Shown: positions 18,489 to 63,472 of the stretch, one piece after another | Numbering within the stretch: position 1 is the stretch's first letter | Layout of the letters: every line of letters begins with the position of its first letter | Source of the DNA: Echinicola marina | GTDB lineage: Bacteria > Bacteroidota > Bacteroidia > Cytophagales > Cyclobacteriaceae | Assembly: GCF_020463795.1 (NCBI RefSeq) | Contig: NZ_CP080025.1 | Coordinates: 1,367,001 to 1,431,000, forward strand | DNA length: 64,000 nucleotides | Direction of reading: 5' to 3' | Made by a program: the position numbers and the translations under genes | Notes under the pieces: model-generated | Seen by the model: only the letters and a program-made list of their open reading frames with translations | What the model was told of the DNA's origin: nothing | Databases searched by the model: none

Positions 18489-19247
18489 ATGAAGCATTTT
18501 AGATATTTATTGAGCATTTTTCTTTTGGTTGGTCTGCTACCAAATCACTCTCAGGCCAGACAACTAGAAAACATGGAATTTATCCGTGTCATTTTAGAAT
18601 TTGATATTAAGGAAGGTCATGCAAAAAAATTTGAGGATCATCTATTGGCCTGGAAGGAATGTTATCTCTCCAATGGTGGACAAATCGAGTGGAGCGTATT
18701 TTATCGCATGAATGGTGAAGGTGATAATTATGTCTTTACTTATATCAAACCCAACTGGGCTGCCTTTGATGAAAAAGATGAGGCTGCTGGTGAATGTTTC
18801 AATTTGGCAGAACTGATGGTCTCTCCCGATGTTAAAACATCCAGAACCCATATGGCGAAGTTCATGCCCGAGGTAAGTAAAGCACCATCCACCGGGGATA
18901 TATCGGTCATTTGGGCTACCTTTTTCAAAGTCAAACCTAGCGGTTATGCACATTTTCTGGAAAACATAAATACCCTTTCCGACCATATCGCTGAGGTCGA
19001 GGGTGATAAAAGAGTTTACTGGTATCAATATCAAGGAGGAGGGGAGAGTTATCCACATTTCTTTGTCACGCAAGCTTTCAGTGACTTTGCCAGTTTAGAT
19101 CAAATTAATGGTGTGTGGAAAAACCTGGAAGAAGGCTTGGAAAAAAAGAAAAAAGATGAACTTTATCAACAGTTTTTTGAGCCTGTAACAAGTATATACA
19201 GCCATATCTATCGCAGGCTGAACGAGCATAGCCATGTAAATGATTAA
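18489..19247 (+). CDS. Secreted protein with two ferredoxin-like (dimeric alpha-beta barrel) repeats
   Basis: A 252-residue protein with signal peptide MKHFRYLLSIFLLVGLLPNHSQA. Two related halves are visible: MEFIRVILEFDIKEGHAKKFEDHL with VFYRMNGEGDNYVFTYIKPNWAAF, and ISVIWATFFKVKPSGYAHFLENI with YWYQYQGGGESYPHFFVTQAF. Both have the strand-helix-strand layout of ABM-like or EthD-like dimeric barrels, so one chain probably forms a full barrel. No catalytic residues are recognised. It lies 130 bases after the AraC gene, same strand, with its own terminator; regulation by that neighbour is a guess. Confidence 0.65.
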   Translation: MKHFRYLLSIFLLVGLLPNHSQARQLENMEFIRVILEFDIKEGHAKKFEDHLLAWKECYLSNGGQIEWSVFYRMNGEGDNYVFTYIKPNWAAFDEKDEAAGECFNLAELMVSPDVKTSRTHMAKFMPEVSKAPSTGDISVIWATFFKVKPSGYAHFLENINTLSDHIAEVEGDKRVYWYQYQGGGESYPHFFVTQAFSDFASLDQINGVWKNLEEGLEKKKKDELYQQFFEPVTSIYSHIYRRLNEHSHVND

Positions 19248-38776: not shown

Positions 38777-41590
38777 ATGCCCAGTTCAGACAAGAAAAAA
38801 CTGTTTCTACTAGATGCCATGGCTCTGATCTATAGGGCCCATTTTGCTTTCAGTAAAAATCCCAGAATTAATTCCAAAGGCCTTAATACCGGAATCATGT
38901 TGGGATTTACCAACACCTTACTGGAAGTAATCGAAAAGCAAAAGCCCAGCCACCTAGCAGTAGCTTTTGATACTTCGGCACCTACTTTTCGTCATGAGCA
39001 GTTTGAAGCCTATAAGGCCAACCGTCAAGAGACTCCCGAAGATATCAGTGTCGGGATTCCATGGGTAAAGCAGATTGTGGAAGGATTTAATATTCCAATT
39101 CTTGAACTGGATGGTTATGAAGCAGACGATATTATAGGAACCATCGCAAAAAAAGCCGAATACAAGGACTTTGAAGTGTTTATGATGACACCTGATAAGG
39201 ATTATGGCCAGTTAGTGGATGACCATATTTTCCTTTACAAGCCAGCCTTTATGGGCAATGCGGTAGATATCATGGGACCAAAGGAGGTATGTGAAAAATG
39301 GGAAATTGAAAGTCCTGACCAAGTAAGGGATATTTTAGGACTGATGGGAGATGCAGTGGACAATATTCCAGGTATCCCGGGCATCGGTGAAAAAACAGCC
39401 AAAAAACTATTGAAAGCCTACGGGAGTATTGAAGGCTTATTGGAGCACACAGAAGAACTGAAGGGCAAACAAAAGGAAAACGTCGTCAATTTTGGGCAGC
39501 AGGGAATATTGTCAAAAGAGCTCGCTACTATCATGCAAAATGTTCCCATTGAGTTTAATCCAAAGGATTTTACTTATGATGGACCGGATGAAGAAAAACT
39601 TAAAGCCTTATTTGCCGAATTGGAATTCCGAACCCTGACCAAAAGAGTATTTGGAGAAAGTATTAAGAAACCTTCGCTTAAAGTCAATGAACAATTAGGC
39701 TTATTTACTGGGCCACAGGATACAGAAGAGGAGGAAGATATTGAAGAAACCAATCCTATTCCTACGCCCAGCCAATTGGATTCGATTTTTTCAAAAGCCC
39801 ATGACTATCATAAAGTAGCTGGAGTAGAAGCTATCAATGAATTGGTCGAATACCTAGAGATCCAGGATGAGCTTTGCTTTGACACCGAAACCACTGATGT
39901 GGACCCAAACAAGGCAGAATTAGTGGGTATTTCCTTTGCCTATATTACCGGAGAGGCATTTTATATTCCCATTCCTTCCGATGTGGAAGAAGCCCAAAAA
40001 CTATTGGCTCCTTTAAAACCGGTTTTTGAAAATGATAAAATCACCAAAATCGGCCAAAACATAAAGTATGATGTCCTAGTGCTGAAGAATTATGGCATTG
40101 AGGTAAAAGGCACTTACTACGACACCATGCTGGCCCACTATCTCATAGAGCCAGAAGGGAAGCATGGCATGGACTGGTTGGCAGAACACTATCTCAACTA
40201 CAAACCTGTTTCCATCGAAAGCCTGATTGGTAAGAAAGGCAAAAACCAAGGCAATATGCGTGATGTGGATGTGGATAAGGTGGTAGAATATGCCTCAGAA
40301 GATGCTGACATCACCTTACAATTGGCCCAAAAGCTCAATCCTGACCTTAAGGACAGGGGATTAGAAAAACTTTTCTATGAGGTAGAAACGCCTTTGATTC
40401 CGGTATTGGCGGCCATGGAGTTTGAAGGGGTCAGGCTAGATGAAAATAGTTTAGCAGATTTATCCAAAGAATTGGAAAAAGAGATTGTCCAAATAGAACA
40501 AAAGGTTTACGAACTGGCCGGAACCAAATTCAATTTGGCTTCTCCGAAACAGCTTGGGGAGGTACTCTTTGTCAAAATGGAATTGGATCCAAAAGCCAAA
40601 AAAACCAAAACCGGTCAATATGCCACTGGTGAAGAAGTACTGTCCAAACTAGCTCCAAAACATGAAATCGCACAAGCCATTTTGGATTTCAGGGAATTGG
40701 TAAAACTTAAAAACACTTATGTGGATACCCTGCCAACCCTGATCAACCCAAAAACCGGTCGAATACATACCACTTATAATCAGATAGTCGCTGCTACAGG
40801 AAGACTTTCCTCCGTCAATCCTAATTTGCAAAATATTCCGATCAGAACAGAAAGGGGTAGGGAAATCCGAAAGGCCTTTGTACCCAGAGATGAAGAGCAT
40901 GTTATCTTGGCAGCGGATTATAGCCAAATAGAATTACGTATCATGGCGGCCTTCTCTAAGGATGAATCCATGATAGAAGCTTTTAAGAACGGTAGAGATA
41001 TCCACAGCACCACGGCAGCCAAGATTTTCCAAGTTCCCATAGATGAGGTTACCTCGGATATGCGTAGAAAGGCAAAAACGGCTAACTTCGGTATCATTTA
41101 TGGTATTTCAGCCTTTGGTTTATCCCAACGATTGAATATTTCAAGAACTGAAGCCAAAGAAATCATCGATGCTTATTTCAAGGAATTCCCTGCCGTAAGT
41201 GAATATATGAACGATTGTATTGAGCAAGCGCGGAAAAACGAATATGTGGAAACCTTGTTAGGAAGACGCAGGTACCTAAGAGATATCAACAGCCGAAATG
41301 CGACCATGAGGGGATTTTCTGAAAGAAATGCCATCAATGCTCCCATTCAGGGCAGTGCTGCAGATATGATCAAAGTAGCCATGATCCATGTGCATAAATG
41401 GATGAAGGAGAAACAATTGAAATCCAAGATGATCCTACAGGTACATGATGAATTGGTTTTCGATGCACATAAGGATGAGGTGGATCTATTGAAAAAGGAA
41501 ATTCCAAAACTGATGACAGAAGCCTTGCCTATAGAAGTGCCAATGCAGGTAGAAGTAGGCGTAGGCAAAGACTGGTTAGAGGCCCATTAA
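38777..41590 (+). CDS. polA: DNA polymerase I
   Basis: A 937-residue three-domain polymerase. The 5'-3' exonuclease domain fills about residues 1-290 (FAFDTSAPTFRHE, ELDGYEADDIIGTIA, MGDAVDNIPGIPGIGEKTA). The 3'-5' proofreading domain keeps its acidic residues (CFDTETTDVDP, Asp369 and Glu371), so proofreading is likely active. The polymerase domain has DYSQIELRIMA (Asp714), KTANFGIIYGIS finger helix, and QVHDELVFDAH (His890-Glu892). It removes RNA primers and fills gaps in replication and repair. Monocistronic. Confidence 0.97.
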   Translation: MPSSDKKKLFLLDAMALIYRAHFAFSKNPRINSKGLNTGIMLGFTNTLLEVIEKQKPSHLAVAFDTSAPTFRHEQFEAYKANRQETPEDISVGIPWVKQIVEGFNIPILELDGYEADDIIGTIAKKAEYKDFEVFMMTPDKDYGQLVDDHIFLYKPAFMGNAVDIMGPKEVCEKWEIESPDQVRDILGLMGDAVDNIPGIPGIGEKTAKKLLKAYGSIEGLLEHTEELKGKQKENVVNFGQQGILSKELATIMQNVPIEFNPKDFTYDGPDEEKLKALFAELEFRTLTKRVFGESIKKPSLKVNEQLGLFTGPQDTEEEEDIEETNPIPTPSQLDSIFSKAHDYHKVAGVEAINELVEYLEIQDELCFDTETTDVDPNKAELVGISFAYITGEAFYIPIPSDVEEAQKLLAPLKPVFENDKITKIGQNIKYDVLVLKNYGIEVKGTYYDTMLAHYLIEPEGKHGMDWLAEHYLNYKPVSIESLIGKKGKNQGNMRDVDVDKVVEYASEDADITLQLAQKLNPDLKDRGLEKLFYEVETPLIPVLAAMEFEGVRLDENSLADLSKELEKEIVQIEQKVYELAGTKFNLASPKQLGEVLFVKMELDPKAKKTKTGQYATGEEVLSKLAPKHEIAQAILDFRELVKLKNTYVDTLPTLINPKTGRIHTTYNQIVAATGRLSSVNPNLQNIPIRTERGREIRKAFVPRDEEHVILAADYSQIELRIMAAFSKDESMIEAFKNGRDIHSTTAAKIFQVPIDEVTSDMRRKAKTANFGIIYGISAFGLSQRLNISRTEAKEIIDAYFKEFPAVSEYMNDCIEQARKNEYVETLLGRRRYLRDINSRNATMRGFSERNAINAPIQGSAADMIKVAMIHVHKWMKEKQLKSKMILQVHDELVFDAHKDEVDLLKKEIPKLMTEALPIEVPMQVEVGVGKDWLEAH

Positions 41591-43981: not shown

Positions 43982-44046
43982 TAAGAATTTATTACAAAAT
44001 CCACAAATGGATACTGCAGCTCTGTTTATCCTTTAAATCAGGGCTT

Positions 44047-44518
44047 AATAATAATCGTCCACAGATGCACACAGATAAACACTGATGAAAGCTTTGTTTT
44101 TTTTGATCAGCTCTTAGAAATCTTTGTGAACTTAGCTACTTCCTTCCAGGGCCCTGCATGAAAAAACTATGAACATCTGTGGTTAGCCCTTACATCTGTG
44201 GTTAATAATAATCGTCCACAGATGCACACAGATAAACACTGATGAAAGCTTTGTTTTTTTTGATCAGCTCTTAGAAATCTTTGTGAACTTAGCTACTTCC
44301 TTCCAGGGCCCTGCATGAAAAAACTATGAACATCTGTGTTTAGCCCTTTCATCTGTGGTTAATAATCTGCGTCCACAGATGCTCACAGATAAACATTGAT
44401 GAAAGCTTTGTTTTTTGATCAGTTCTTAGAAATCTTTGTGAACTTAATTACTTCCTTCCAGAGCCCTGCATGAAAAAACTATGAACATCTGTGTTTATCC
44501 TTCTTCATCTGTGGTTAA
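44047..44518. repeat. Three tandem 157-bp repeats of the CCACAGATG family
   Basis: Units start at 44047, 44204 and 44361 (GTCCACAGAT at 44057, 44214 and 44371, spacing exactly 157). Each unit has CCACAGATGCACACAGATAAACACTGATG at its start, an internal stretch TTTGATCAGCTCTTAGAAATC and CAGGGCCCTGCATGAA, and ends CATCTGTGTTTAGCC...CATCTGTGGTTAAT, inverted to the start. Units 1 and 2 are nearly identical; unit 3 has more differences. Together with the 43365-43553 element they flank the GxxExxY pseudogene. Confidence 0.9.
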
Positions 44519-44545: not shown

Positions 44546-44968
44546 ATGAAAATCTTTCAAAAACATATATCTCTAAAAGCTCATTCCAGAGGCTTCCATT
44601 TGATTACCGATGAGGTGGAAGATGCCCTACCCGAAATCAGGGAAATAAAAATGGGCACTTTGCAGGTTTTTATCAAGCATACCTCTGCCGGCCTCACCAT
44701 CAATGAAAATGCTGACCCAACGGTACGAAAGGACTTCGAAACATTTATTAATGACTTGGTTAGCGAAACTTATCCACGATTTATCCACACCTACGAAGGA
44801 CCGGATGATATGCCCGCTCATATCAAAAGCAGTCTCTTTGGTTCCACGTTAAATATTCCTATTTCAAATGGAAAATTGGCCTTGGGGACTTGGCAAGGCA
44901 TATATTTAGGAGAATTCAGGAATTATGGCGGACCTAGAAAACTGATCATCACGGCCATGGGTGCCTAA
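44546..44968 (+). CDS. YjbQ family protein (secondary thiamine-phosphate synthase-like)
   Basis: A 140-residue member of the UPF0047/YjbQ family. Family motifs are visible: VFIKHTSAGLTINENADPTVRKD, DMPAHIKSSLFGSTLNIPI, LGTWQGIYLGEFRN. The conserved His residues point to a metal site. Members have a weak thiamine-phosphate synthase activity in vitro, but their true role is not settled. Only about 28 bases separate it from the tandem repeats, so its promoter may lie within the last repeat. Confidence 0.9.
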   Translation: MKIFQKHISLKAHSRGFHLITDEVEDALPEIREIKMGTLQVFIKHTSAGLTINENADPTVRKDFETFINDLVSETYPRFIHTYEGPDDMPAHIKSSLFGSTLNIPISNGKLALGTWQGIYLGEFRNYGGPRKLIITAMGA

Positions 44969-60987: not shown

Positions 60988-61437
60988 ATGGCCATTAATT
61001 TCTTCCAAGAAGACATCAAATACAATCTTCCTCAGAAAAATTTAAGCAAGAAATGGTTAAGACATATCGCTCAAAAAGAAGGCTTTACCATCTCCGACTT
61101 AAACTATATATTCTGCACCGATGAATACCTACATCAAATAAATATAGAATACCTGAACCATGACACCTATACAGACATCATCACCTTTGATAATTCCGAA
61201 GAAGAAAATAAAATCGAGAGTGATATCTTCATCAGTATAGAAAGGGTCAAAGAAAATTCCAAAACAGAAGGTCAAGAATTTCAAAAAGAAATACTTAGAG
61301 TATTAAGTCATGGAATCCTCCATCTCTGTGGATACAAAGACAAATCAAAAGAAGAAGCGCTATTAATGAGAAAAAAAGAAGACGAATCCATAGACTTCTT
61401 TCTTCGATTAGCAGAACAAAAACAAAGTTCCACGTGA
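60988..61437 (+). CDS. ybeY: YbeY-family rRNA maturation endonuclease
   Basis: A 149-residue YbeY. The zinc motif is SHGILHLCGYKDKS: His108 and His112 are in place, but the third ligand position (118) is Asp, where E. coli has His in GYDH. The YLNHDTYTDIITFDN stretch before it is standard. YbeY matures 16S rRNA. Its TGA stop codon (61435-61437) lies inside the first parS-type site, so the gene end and the site overlap. Confidence 0.93.
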   Translation: MAINFFQEDIKYNLPQKNLSKKWLRHIAQKEGFTISDLNYIFCTDEYLHQINIEYLNHDTYTDIITFDNSEEENKIESDIFISIERVKENSKTEGQEFQKEILRVLSHGILHLCGYKDKSKEEALLMRKKEDESIDFFLRLAEQKQSST

Positions 61438-61441
61438 AACA
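61426..61441. promoter_or_regulatory. parS-type site 1
   Basis: AGTTCCACGTGAAACA, 15 of 16 positions compatible with the ParB consensus TGTTYCACGTGRAACA. It overlaps the last bases of ybeY including the stop codon. Confidence 0.85.
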
Positions 61442-61481
61442 TTATCTCAAAAAGAACATGACAACATATCAAGTTCTCACC

Positions 61482-61497
61482 TGTTCCACGTGAAACA
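61482..61497. promoter_or_regulatory. parS-type site 2
   Basis: TGTTCCACGTGAAACA, identical to the well-known B. subtilis-type parS consensus variant. Confidence 0.9.
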
Positions 61498-61527
61498 CTA
61501 CACTTAATTAAGAAGAATATTCAAGAC

Positions 61528-61543
61528 TGTTTCACGTGAAACA
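61528..61543. promoter_or_regulatory. parS-type site 3
   Basis: TGTTTCACGTGAAACA, a perfect match to the canonical parS; the palindrome extends to 20 bp (ACTGTTTCACGTGAAACAGT, 61526-61545). Confidence 0.93.
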
Positions 61544-61571
61544 GTAAAAATGAATAAATAAAAACCAAACA

Positions 61572-61587
61572 TGTTCCACGTGGAACA
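61572..61587. promoter_or_regulatory. parS-type site 4
   Basis: TGTTCCACGTGGAACA, a perfect palindrome and a parS variant with C/G at the inner wobble positions. It ends 20 bases before the mnmG ATG. Confidence 0.9.
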
Positions 61588-61606: not shown

Positions 61607-63472
61607 ATGTTTCCAGAATACGACGTAATAGTAGTAGGGGCAGGTCATGCGGGTTGTGAAGCAGCACATGCAGCAGCAAAGATGGGGAGTTCAGTGCTTT
61701 TATGTACCATGAATATGAACACTATTGCCCAAATGTCATGCAATCCAGCTATGGGTGGTGTAGCAAAAGGGCAAATCGTTAGGGAAATTGACGCACTTGG
61801 TGGTCAATCCGGTATTATTTCCGATAAATCCATGATCCAATTCCGTATGCTGAACCGATCTAAAGGTCCAGCTATGTGGTCTCCAAGATCACAGAATGAT
61901 AGAATGCGTTTTGCGGAAGAATGGAGATTGGCATTAGAAAGGACGCCAAATGTAGATTTTTGGCAAGAAATGATTACTGGTTTGATCGTAAAAGACAAAC
62001 GCGTAATAGGAGTAAAGACCAGCATAGGTCTGGAAATAAAAGCAAAATCCGTAGTACTTACCAACGGTACATTTTTGAATGGACTTATCCATATTGGTGA
62101 AAAACAATTCGGTGGTGGTAGAACAGGTGAAGCCGCAGCAAGAGGAATAACAGAACAGCTTGTAGAATTAGGTTTCGAAGCAGGTAGAATGAAGACAGGT
62201 ACTCCACCCAGGGTAGATGGAAGGAGCTTGGATTACTCTAAAATGGAAGTGCAATATGGCGATGAACACCCTGAAAAGTTTTCTTTTTCGGATGAAACCT
62301 CTCCTCTAAAAGAGCAAAGAACCTGTTGGATTACCTACACCAATAAAGAGGTGCACGAAACTTTGGAGACTGGTTTCGATAGATCTCCTATGTTTAATGG
62401 TAGAATACAAGGCTTAGGACCTCGATATTGTCCCTCTATTGAAGATAAAATCAACCGTTTTGCAGAACGCGATAGGCATCAAATATTCGTGGAACCAGAA
62501 GGTTGGGATACAGTAGAGATATACGTTAATGGCTTCTCTACTTCCCTGCCTGAAGATGTTCAATATAAAGCCATCCGTAAAATACAAGGTTTTGAAAATT
62601 GTAAGATGTTCCGTCCTGGCTATGCCATTGAATATGATTTCTTTCCTCCTACTCAGTTAAAACTTACGTTGGAAACACAGTTGGTAGAGAATCTATTCTT
62701 TGCCGGACAAATCAATGGGACTACCGGTTATGAAGAAGCCGCCTCCCAAGGGTTAATTGCAGGGATGAATGCAGCACAAAAGGTCAAGGAAGAAGCGCCT
62801 TTTATTCTAAAAAGATCAGATGCCTACATCGGTGTACTGATAGATGACCTCATCAATAAGGGTACCGAAGAACCTTATAGGATGTTTACCAGCAGGGCAG
62901 AGTTCAGACTATTACTAAGGCAAGACAATGCAGATCTCCGATTGACCCAATTAGGCCATAAAGTTGGTCTGGCATCAGATGAAAGACTCGATAAAATGAT
63001 GGACAAAAAGAACGATACTGCTAAACTGATCAATGATCTAAAGCAGAAAAAGCTAAGTCCTGAAAGCATCAATACAGGTTTAGAAGATCTACAGACTGCT
63101 TCTATCAAAGAAAAAATAACGGTAGAAAAACTATTGAAAAGACCTCAGCTAGGTTTACAAACTATAAAGAATTTAGATGAGGAATTAAATAGCTACCTAA
63201 ACAAATACCCAAAAGAGGTATTGGAGCAGGCAGAAATCCAGGTCAAATATAATAGCTATATAGAGAAGGAACAGCAGATGGTAGAAAAGCTTAATAATAT
63301 GGAGAATTTCAAAATACCTCTTGACTTCGACTACTTATCTGTACCAGCTCTATCCGCGGAGGGCAAACAAAAACTTAATAAAGTAAGACCAGAAACCCTA
63401 GGACAAGCATCCAGAATCAGTGGCGTATCACCTGCTGATTTATCCATACTCACAGTATATTTAGGAAGATAA
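61607..63472 (+). CDS. mnmG: tRNA uridine-5-carboxymethylaminomethyl modification enzyme MnmG
   Basis: A 621-residue FAD enzyme that with MnmE modifies the wobble uridine of several tRNAs. FAD motif VVVGAGHAGCEAAHAAAKMG (about 8-27), CNPAMGGVAKGQIVREID, KTGTPPRVDGRS, GLGPRYCPSIEDKI, TSRAEFRLLLRQDNAD and a C-terminal helical domain ending ISGVSPADLSILTVYLGR. Often next to the origin of replication in bacteria, consistent with the parS cluster just upstream. Confidence 0.97.
   Translation: MFPEYDVIVVGAGHAGCEAAHAAAKMGSSVLLCTMNMNTIAQMSCNPAMGGVAKGQIVREIDALGGQSGIISDKSMIQFRMLNRSKGPAMWSPRSQNDRMRFAEEWRLALERTPNVDFWQEMITGLIVKDKRVIGVKTSIGLEIKAKSVVLTNGTFLNGLIHIGEKQFGGGRTGEAAARGITEQLVELGFEAGRMKTGTPPRVDGRSLDYSKMEVQYGDEHPEKFSFSDETSPLKEQRTCWITYTNKEVHETLETGFDRSPMFNGRIQGLGPRYCPSIEDKINRFAERDRHQIFVEPEGWDTVEIYVNGFSTSLPEDVQYKAIRKIQGFENCKMFRPGYAIEYDFFPPTQLKLTLETQLVENLFFAGQINGTTGYEEAASQGLIAGMNAAQKVKEEAPFILKRSDAYIGVLIDDLINKGTEEPYRMFTSRAEFRLLLRQDNADLRLTQLGHKVGLASDERLDKMMDKKNDTAKLINDLKQKKLSPESINTGLEDLQTASIKEKITVEKLLKRPQLGLQTIKNLDEELNSYLNKYPKEVLEQAEIQVKYNSYIEKEQQMVEKLNNMENFKIPLDFDYLSVPALSAEGKQKLNKVRPETLGQASRISGVSPADLSILTVYLGR

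Follow-up and report, generated by a model that had tools for sequence, protein, structure and literature searches.

A putative chromosomal parS centromere beside an oriC candidate in Echinicola marina, adjoined by a largely one-sided field of DnaA boxes that may act as a DnaA reservoir

Chromosomal ParABS systems operate through the nucleation of ParB at parS, its CTP-dependent sliding and ParA-driven movement; the parS consensus of the Spo0J-parS family was reportedly set out by Livny et al. in 2007. Whether titration of DnaA on the chromosome serves as a timer for replication has long been debated, and the idea has recently gained support in Escherichia coli. For gut bacteria, including Bacteroides and Muribaculum, the sections of a Hi-C study cited here locate the origin of replication from parS clusters combined with GC skew, and state that origin and dnaA are not systematically found in the same place (PMC10197239). 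In E. coli and Salmonella an origin-proximal excess of DnaA boxes over permuted words is described, and proposed to favour DnaA titration, in the portion of a second study drawn on here, which also describes growth-rate-dependent control of free DnaA by the E. coli chromosome (PMC12371093). Non-oriC DnaA sites that restrain initiation take the form of six DnaA-box clusters in Bacillus subtilis and of the single locus datA in E. coli, according to the cited part of a third (PMC5295017).

The locus described here was analysed within a window of 64,000 bp of the Echinicola marina genome (positions 1367001–1431000 of a single contig of 5,693,670 bp). We read it as a chromosomal parS centromere near an oriC candidate, plus an adjoining reservoir of DnaA boxes, and put the probability of this reading as a whole at roughly 0.8. 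The centromere part resembles known chromosomal ParABS systems in having the same 16-mer, clustered beside a skew-defined origin, a ParB with parS-type residues and a ParA-like partner; it differs in that parAB do not adjoin parS, and in the packing of four sites into 162 bp between ybeY and mnmG. The separation of origin from dnaA is shared with the gut bacteria above, whilst neither the ybeY-mnmG placement nor the density of DnaA boxes appears in those sections of the account (PMC10197239). The excess in E. coli is milder (a median Z of about 2, for 10-centisome windows around oriC and degenerate motifs, in the part of PMC12371093 used here), whereas in the present genome an exact 9-mer shows ~20-fold enrichment over 1.3 percent of the chromosome, largely to one side and with codon-level selection. 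Unlike the B. subtilis clusters or datA, the Echinicola field consists of diffuse single boxes, 29 of 32 of them inside ORFs. A literature search found no paper joining the DnaA box with Cyclobacteriaceae, Echinicola with oriC, or parS with Flavobacterium and ybeY, and none that brought together four of the five themes of DnaA boxes, density, origin proximity, Bacteroidetes and titration. It is the field, distinguished by its strength, lopsidedness and codon-level encoding, that forms the unexpected part; it matters more than the parS sites and is worth an experiment.

Reading the junction from left to right, ybeY (rRNA maturation RNase; window 60988–61437, + strand; above the cut-off of NCBIfam TIGR00043) forms the left border of the centromere and mnmG (gidA; window 61607–63472, + strand; above the cut-off of TIGR00136) its right border. 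Between them stand four parS sites matching TGTTYCACGTGRAACA, to which no strand is assigned: site 1 (window 61426–61441) has a single mismatch (A at position 1) and overlaps the stop codon of ybeY, which ends at 61437, inside the site; site 2 (61482–61497) is perfect; sites 3 (61528–61543) and 4 (61572–61587) are both perfect and symmetric, the latter starting 35 bp before the mnmG ATG, with a gap of 19 bases between its end and that codon. The initial annotation of this DNA had placed four palindromes in these 162 bp, ‘two or three’ of them perfect and the first across the ybeY stop; each of these statements holds, the perfect sites being three in number. The remaining two matches to TGTTYCACGTGRAACA in the window have three mismatches each, and at ≤3 mismatches the window contains six matches as compared with a mean of 0.57, and a maximum of 2, in 100 dinucleotide shuffles. 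Across the whole genome, sites with 0–1 mismatch comprise these four and nothing else (the annotation had taken scattered copies of the 16-mer as a reason for doubt, and at this threshold there are none), and parS-like sites with two mismatches number three, at 207564, 1299259 and 4037865. A chance origin of the four-site cluster is excluded. The window was also scanned with Rfam and for tRNA, and nothing was found.

The same arrangement recurs among relatives. From 422 MnmG relatives, the best of them being from Echinicola salinicaeni (at 97 percent identity) and from E. arenosa (at 95 percent), the parS loci of the best 80 were surveyed, a sample in which near kin are over-represented; parS-like sites stand directly 5′ of mnmG in all 80, with, at ≤1 mismatch, two sites in 73 loci, three in 3, four in 2, five in 1 and one in 1. 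The last site starts between −25 and −37 bp from the mnmG ATG in every locus (mean −32, sd 2.2), and amongst the 78 loci in which the end of ybeY was located the first site begins 1–3 bp past the ybeY stop in 51 and the ybeY-mnmG gap measures 65–90 bp in 52. What had been called an unusual arrangement is thereby shown to be a shared one, at the last site in 80 of 80 relatives and at the ybeY stop in 51 of 78. Spacings between the relatives’ sites peak at 43–47 (48 of 89 spacings); a 46-bp spacing was nevertheless dropped as a feature, since the short ybeY-mnmG gap may account for the peak.

Further afield, the exact 16-mer occurs in 298 of 395 sampled genomes of the phylum, against two for the reversed control word. 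The 29 wider loci inspected from this search were its nearest matches, all from the same class or nearer; parS lies 5′ of mnmG in 19 of them (18 of which have a ybeY match in the locus) and 3′ of it in three, and the other seven lack mnmG within flanks of 1.5 kb. The distance from parS to mnmG is variable in the more distant members of the class. The ybeY-parS-mnmG placement is a rule among near relatives, common but not universal in the class, and the parS cluster taken alone is ordinary and belongs to a known kind. Exceptions to the rule (3 + 7 genomes) are L015–L017, where parS is directly 3′ of mnmG, and the L025–L028; L034–L036 group. In one locus (L018, genome G017) an exact parS lies at position 2038, ~380 bp inside the mnmG coding sequence, in addition to three sites upstream.

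The annotation had left parB to be sought in the rest of the genome; it is present, in a parAB operon near 2.873 Mb, 1.44 Mb or 25 percent of the chromosome away from parS. Its ORF is the sole match in the genome above the family cut-off (TIGR00180, 185 bits; cut-off 58), a second ParB-family match at 3.558 Mb scoring 18.8 bits, below it. Directly upstream of parB lies a ParA-like ORF (L054:10704–11483); partition ATPase models match it, below cut-off in all 25 families listed, and its name rests on similarity and neighbourhood. ParB carries an arginine at Caulobacter position 173 and a glycine at 201 (numbering set via alignment), residues that are given as absolutely conserved in extant ParB orthologues in the section of PMC7383237 cited here. 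Together with the uniqueness of the sites and the change of GC-skew sign described below, parAB and these specificity residues support the annotation’s proposal of a partition centre at the replication origin, and we consider the four palindromes to be, very probably, the chromosome’s centromere. By analogy with the family, ParB, although encoded at such a distance, would load on parS as a CTP clamp and spread over ybeY-mnmG, and its movement by ParA would separate the new origins.

GC skew was sampled in 40 loci of 20 kb, plus the window. Negative values run from ~4.5 Mb across 0 to 1.42 Mb, save for a weakly positive locus at 1.14 Mb; between 1.43 and 4.3 Mb the skew is positive or close to zero, and the reverse change falls near 4.42 Mb. 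Calculated base by base over a joined 118-kb stretch, the cumulative minimum falls at window 58842, 2.8 kb before mnmG, in line with the earlier expectation that it should not lie far from that gene. The local minima of five congeners are positioned at +6.0, −2.8, −4.4, −10.8 and −12.7 kb relative to mnmG, and that of G398, counter to the others, at −83.8 kb; parS is thus origin-proximal to within 3 kb here and to within 13 kb in five of six congeners, the figure for G398 being 84 kb.

Just beyond the end of the window, at the skew switch, an AT-rich intergenic stretch ~4.5 kb from parS (genome 1433089–1433926) contains a cluster of DnaA boxes at ≤1 mismatch and is our candidate for oriC; nine one-mismatch boxes lie in it or at its edge, none of the nine being the exact 9-mer. 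Within 20 kb of mnmG, the 500 bp in which DnaA boxes (≤1 mismatch) are most concentrated is found at +4450 from the mnmG start in all seven Echinicola examined, with a G+C of 0.29–0.35, and in relatives 49 of 71 perfect boxes fall 2.5–5 kb downstream of the mnmG start, as counted from −10 to ~+12 kb in the 70 of 80 loci with full flanks.

As an origin marker, dnaA was rejected: its ORF begins at base 101 of the sequence record, 1.43 Mb or a quarter of the chromosome from parS, a position that the skew puts in mid-replichore. Five of six closed Echinicola records begin at dnaA. Distances from dnaA and from parB to parS are, respectively, 1.21–1.35 and 1.39–1.60 Mb in four other closed Echinicola genomes, and 1.00–1.43 and 0.74–1.17 Mb in five further closed genomes from the same class (G404, with no exact length, and G387, with parS not beside mnmG, being set aside). 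In Echinicola it is the ybeY-parS-mnmG junction that marks the origin, with dnaA ~1.2–1.4 Mb off. Seven further frames of 263 aa, at 609630, 1783650, 2701175, 3627540, 4136260, 4307284 and 5270658, match a DnaA-type ATPase with identical score and length; judging by these scores, they probably encode the IstB-like helper ATPase of an insertion sequence. Two small, similar ORFs close to the origin (L049:14261–14620 and L049:15933–16286) may resemble proteins of the four-helix-bundle type (23S rRNA intervening sequence).

On the ybeY side of parS, 72 kb of the chromosome (genome 1352369–1424395) carries 32 perfect copies of TTATCCACA, presumably the canonical DnaA box, out of 128 genome-wide, as compared with 64 for the reversed word. 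To the right of parS there are none up to 1465000 (+36 kb), and further right a weaker excess is seen (18 boxes, 1489306–1622580; +61 to +194 kb). Twenty-four of the field boxes are in the window (19049–57403, no strand assigned), starting at 19049, 22624, 22882, 23071, 23215, 25524, 25859, 26454, 27735, 31526, 35238, 37166, 37967, 40270, 42091, 44781, 49795, 52685, 53345, 55066, 55132, 55407, 55508 and 57395; the eight others lie to its left (genome 1352369–1364022). In an unbiased count against a 680-kb background the box is the most enriched 9-mer of the region (32 against 1.66 expected), and exact boxes near the oriC candidate exceed permuted words of the same composition, which average 0.12–0.35 per 20 kb in the field, as elsewhere. 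Their flanks are unrelated, which rules out the boxes being members of a repeat family, and a strand preference was discounted (113 against 79 over seven genomes, with an inconsistent direction). Box-bearing genes in the window include polA, a RadA-like gene, an amidase, an MscS channel and a UPF0047 gene, amongst others. A second enriched word, CATCTGTGGTT, was rejected as a field-wide feature, being mostly local and repeat-borne: four of its six copies lie within a tandem repeat of 157 bp. This repeat (window 44045–44518) consists of three head-to-tail copies of the unit, with 94 percent matches.

Both the codons used and the conservation of the boxes point to the DNA word as that which is retained. 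Aligned with congeners, the exact box is conserved in 29 of 59 alignments and same-phase neighbouring 9-mers in 529 of 8346, a difference of ~8-fold, in a count that covers the 19 of 32 boxes alignable in at least one congener and in which comparisons with several congeners are not independent. Within polA (DNA polymerase I; window 38777–41590, + strand) the box at 40270 is kept exactly in five of six aligned congeners, and within the UPF0047 gene (window 44546–44968, + strand) the box at 44781 is kept in six of six. Peptides that permit a box are spelled as one in 29 of 43 cases in the field, versus 13 of 154 in 34 other loci; the opportunities offered by codons are realised in 142 of 246 cases in six field genomes, in 2 of 15 in G396, and in 15 of 164 on the right-hand sides of seven genomes (7 of 30 in G398 alone). 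Codon usage and exact conservation therefore constitute strong evidence, at the level of sequence, for selection acting on the DNA word itself.

Around mnmG, 200 kb was read in each of six congeners, a box again being a perfect TTATCCACA. Within 100 kb of mnmG the ybeY side and the other side contain, respectively, 33 and 8 boxes in G398, 34 and 6 in G401, 21 and 5 in G402, 40 and 0 in G403, 25 and 7 in G397, 6 and 5 in G396, and 33 and 8 in the genome studied here; for the seven Echinicola together, 192 against 39. The first 20 kb to the right of mnmG are free of boxes in six of the seven, with one box in G396; within 100 kb, the right side has 5–8 boxes in four of six congeners. The field is mostly, not strictly, one-sided, and the left-right contrast stands. 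Box groups are found at differing distances from mnmG among the congeners. Ranked against the right-hand background, TTATCCACA comes 1st to 6th amongst 9-mers in six of the seven genomes and 1478th in G396, in which the field is nearly missing, five of its six ybeY-side boxes lying at −6.3 to −8.1 kb.

Of 78 genomes counted in the family Cyclobacteriaceae, MnmG served to locate 20, and six of these were examined around mnmG: G470 and G452 over 40 kb on the ybeY side, and G416, G417, G455 and G446 as lists of matches. G111, G320, G146 and G273 were read in addition, over 100 kb each. Three of these ten genomes, all from outside Echinicola, have a field on the ybeY side: G111 (Algoriphagus kandeliae) with 14 boxes between −36 and −23 kb, G273 (another genus) with 22 between −62 and −13 kb, and G455 with at least nine from about −14 to −27 kb. 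There is no field in 80 kb of the ybeY side of G320 (1 box) or G146 (3 boxes), there are zero boxes in 40 kb of that side in G470 (Rhodonellum), three in 40 kb against 0.5 expected, and no such field, in G452 (Pararhodonellum), and no such field near mnmG in G416 or, among the matches listed, in G417. G446 was counted neither for nor against; it has dense box groups on a contig not joined to mnmG (C18:205237–317019), as well as a group to the right of that gene (C14:79856–109630). The field is patchy within the family and on the ybeY side wherever it can be placed; being all but absent from G396 and, close to mnmG, at or near background in six other members examined, it is not essential for the family. 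Its presence in some genera and absence from others offers a ready natural experiment for the titration model.

What, other than a centromere, might the palindromes be? That they form RNA hairpins, or a terminator or attenuator, in the ybeY-mnmG transcript is scarcely credible. On the minus strand, site 4 does score like the stem of a terminator, but of the 169 sites accepted in relatives at ≤1 mismatch all 45 mismatches are at the outer positions 1 and 16, with none at positions 2–15 beyond the allowed Y and R, and 53 have a C/A combination at positions 5/12 that would break an RNA hairpin; the sites are therefore kept as DNA, and we reject the hairpin reading on both counts. Less far-fetched, though still unlikely, is that parS here mainly regulates mnmG, ParB bound 9–21 bp from the start codon blocking or tuning the start of transcription or translation. 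This would suit the very tight position of the last site across the 80 loci; against it, two sites hardly fit anywhere else in so short a gap, the first site is anchored to ybeY in most loci, and the distance varies in more distant members of the class, three genomes having parS 3′ of mnmG. No promoter-like element was found between ybeY and mnmG: TAnnTTTG, the Bacteroidota −7 element, was not found upstream of mnmG here and occurs within 200 bp upstream of it in 4 of 80 relatives. Of the effects of parS on its neighbours elsewhere, the cited part of a review relates that adjoining genes are without expression change in B. subtilis lacking Spo0J, and that some are repressed in Pseudomonas aeruginosa (PMC7022226).

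As regards the field, we think it improbable that only the centromere is functional and that local base or codon usage, or a mobile element, has produced the excess of boxes as a by-product. Such an origin would be in keeping with a field found in some but not all of the family genomes read, and with the variable distances of box groups from mnmG; it does not account for the scarcity of permuted same-composition words in the field, nor for the ~8-fold better retention of boxes than of neighbouring 9-mers. Of 18 window proteins compared with Pfam, 15 of them box-bearing, none falls in a mobile-element family, the 15 being from ordinary families or, in three cases, from no family, and a mobile island was rejected. 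Somewhat easier to entertain, if doubtful, is that another DNA-binding protein (an organiser of a macrodomain or of nucleoid occlusion) shares the word of DnaA and reads the boxes. Sites dispersed inside genes around an origin are indeed how those of Noc and SlmA are laid out, and the field recalls them; however, the 9-mer ranked first by an unbiased scan is identical to the canonical DnaA box, the candidate origin of relatives is marked by that word as well, and DnaA here has GGRDHSTVIHA, aligning to GGRDHTTVIHA of B. subtilis DnaA.

Our preferred reading remains that of a centromere adjoined by a reservoir. The 32 boxes would most likely bind free DnaA, and the doubling of the field soon after the passage of one fork may damp re-initiation at oriC. 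We incline, by a little, towards the fuller proposal that Echinicola and some of its kin possess a lopsided and dedicated DnaA reservoir, with a quarter of all perfect boxes concentrated on the parS side of oriC and maintained by codon-level selection inside unrelated genes; a single fork would double these titration sites soon after initiation, and parS would mark the border between reservoir and origin, with a possible functional link between field and centromere.

To the right of mnmG, at 34–128 kb, six genomes also have a compact cluster of 3–4 perfect DnaA boxes (here at G000:C1:1556566–1556670; at +68.4 kb from the mnmG start in G398, +62.1 in G401, +33.9 in G396, +58.4 in G397 and +80.3 in G402), which in G398, G401 and G396 takes the form of three boxes at 10-bp steps. 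This could be a datA/DARS-like second DnaA locus or a second origin element. Its neighbours, named by eye, are ClC-channel-like and Fur-like in G398 and G396, and ClC-like and another transporter-like in G397.
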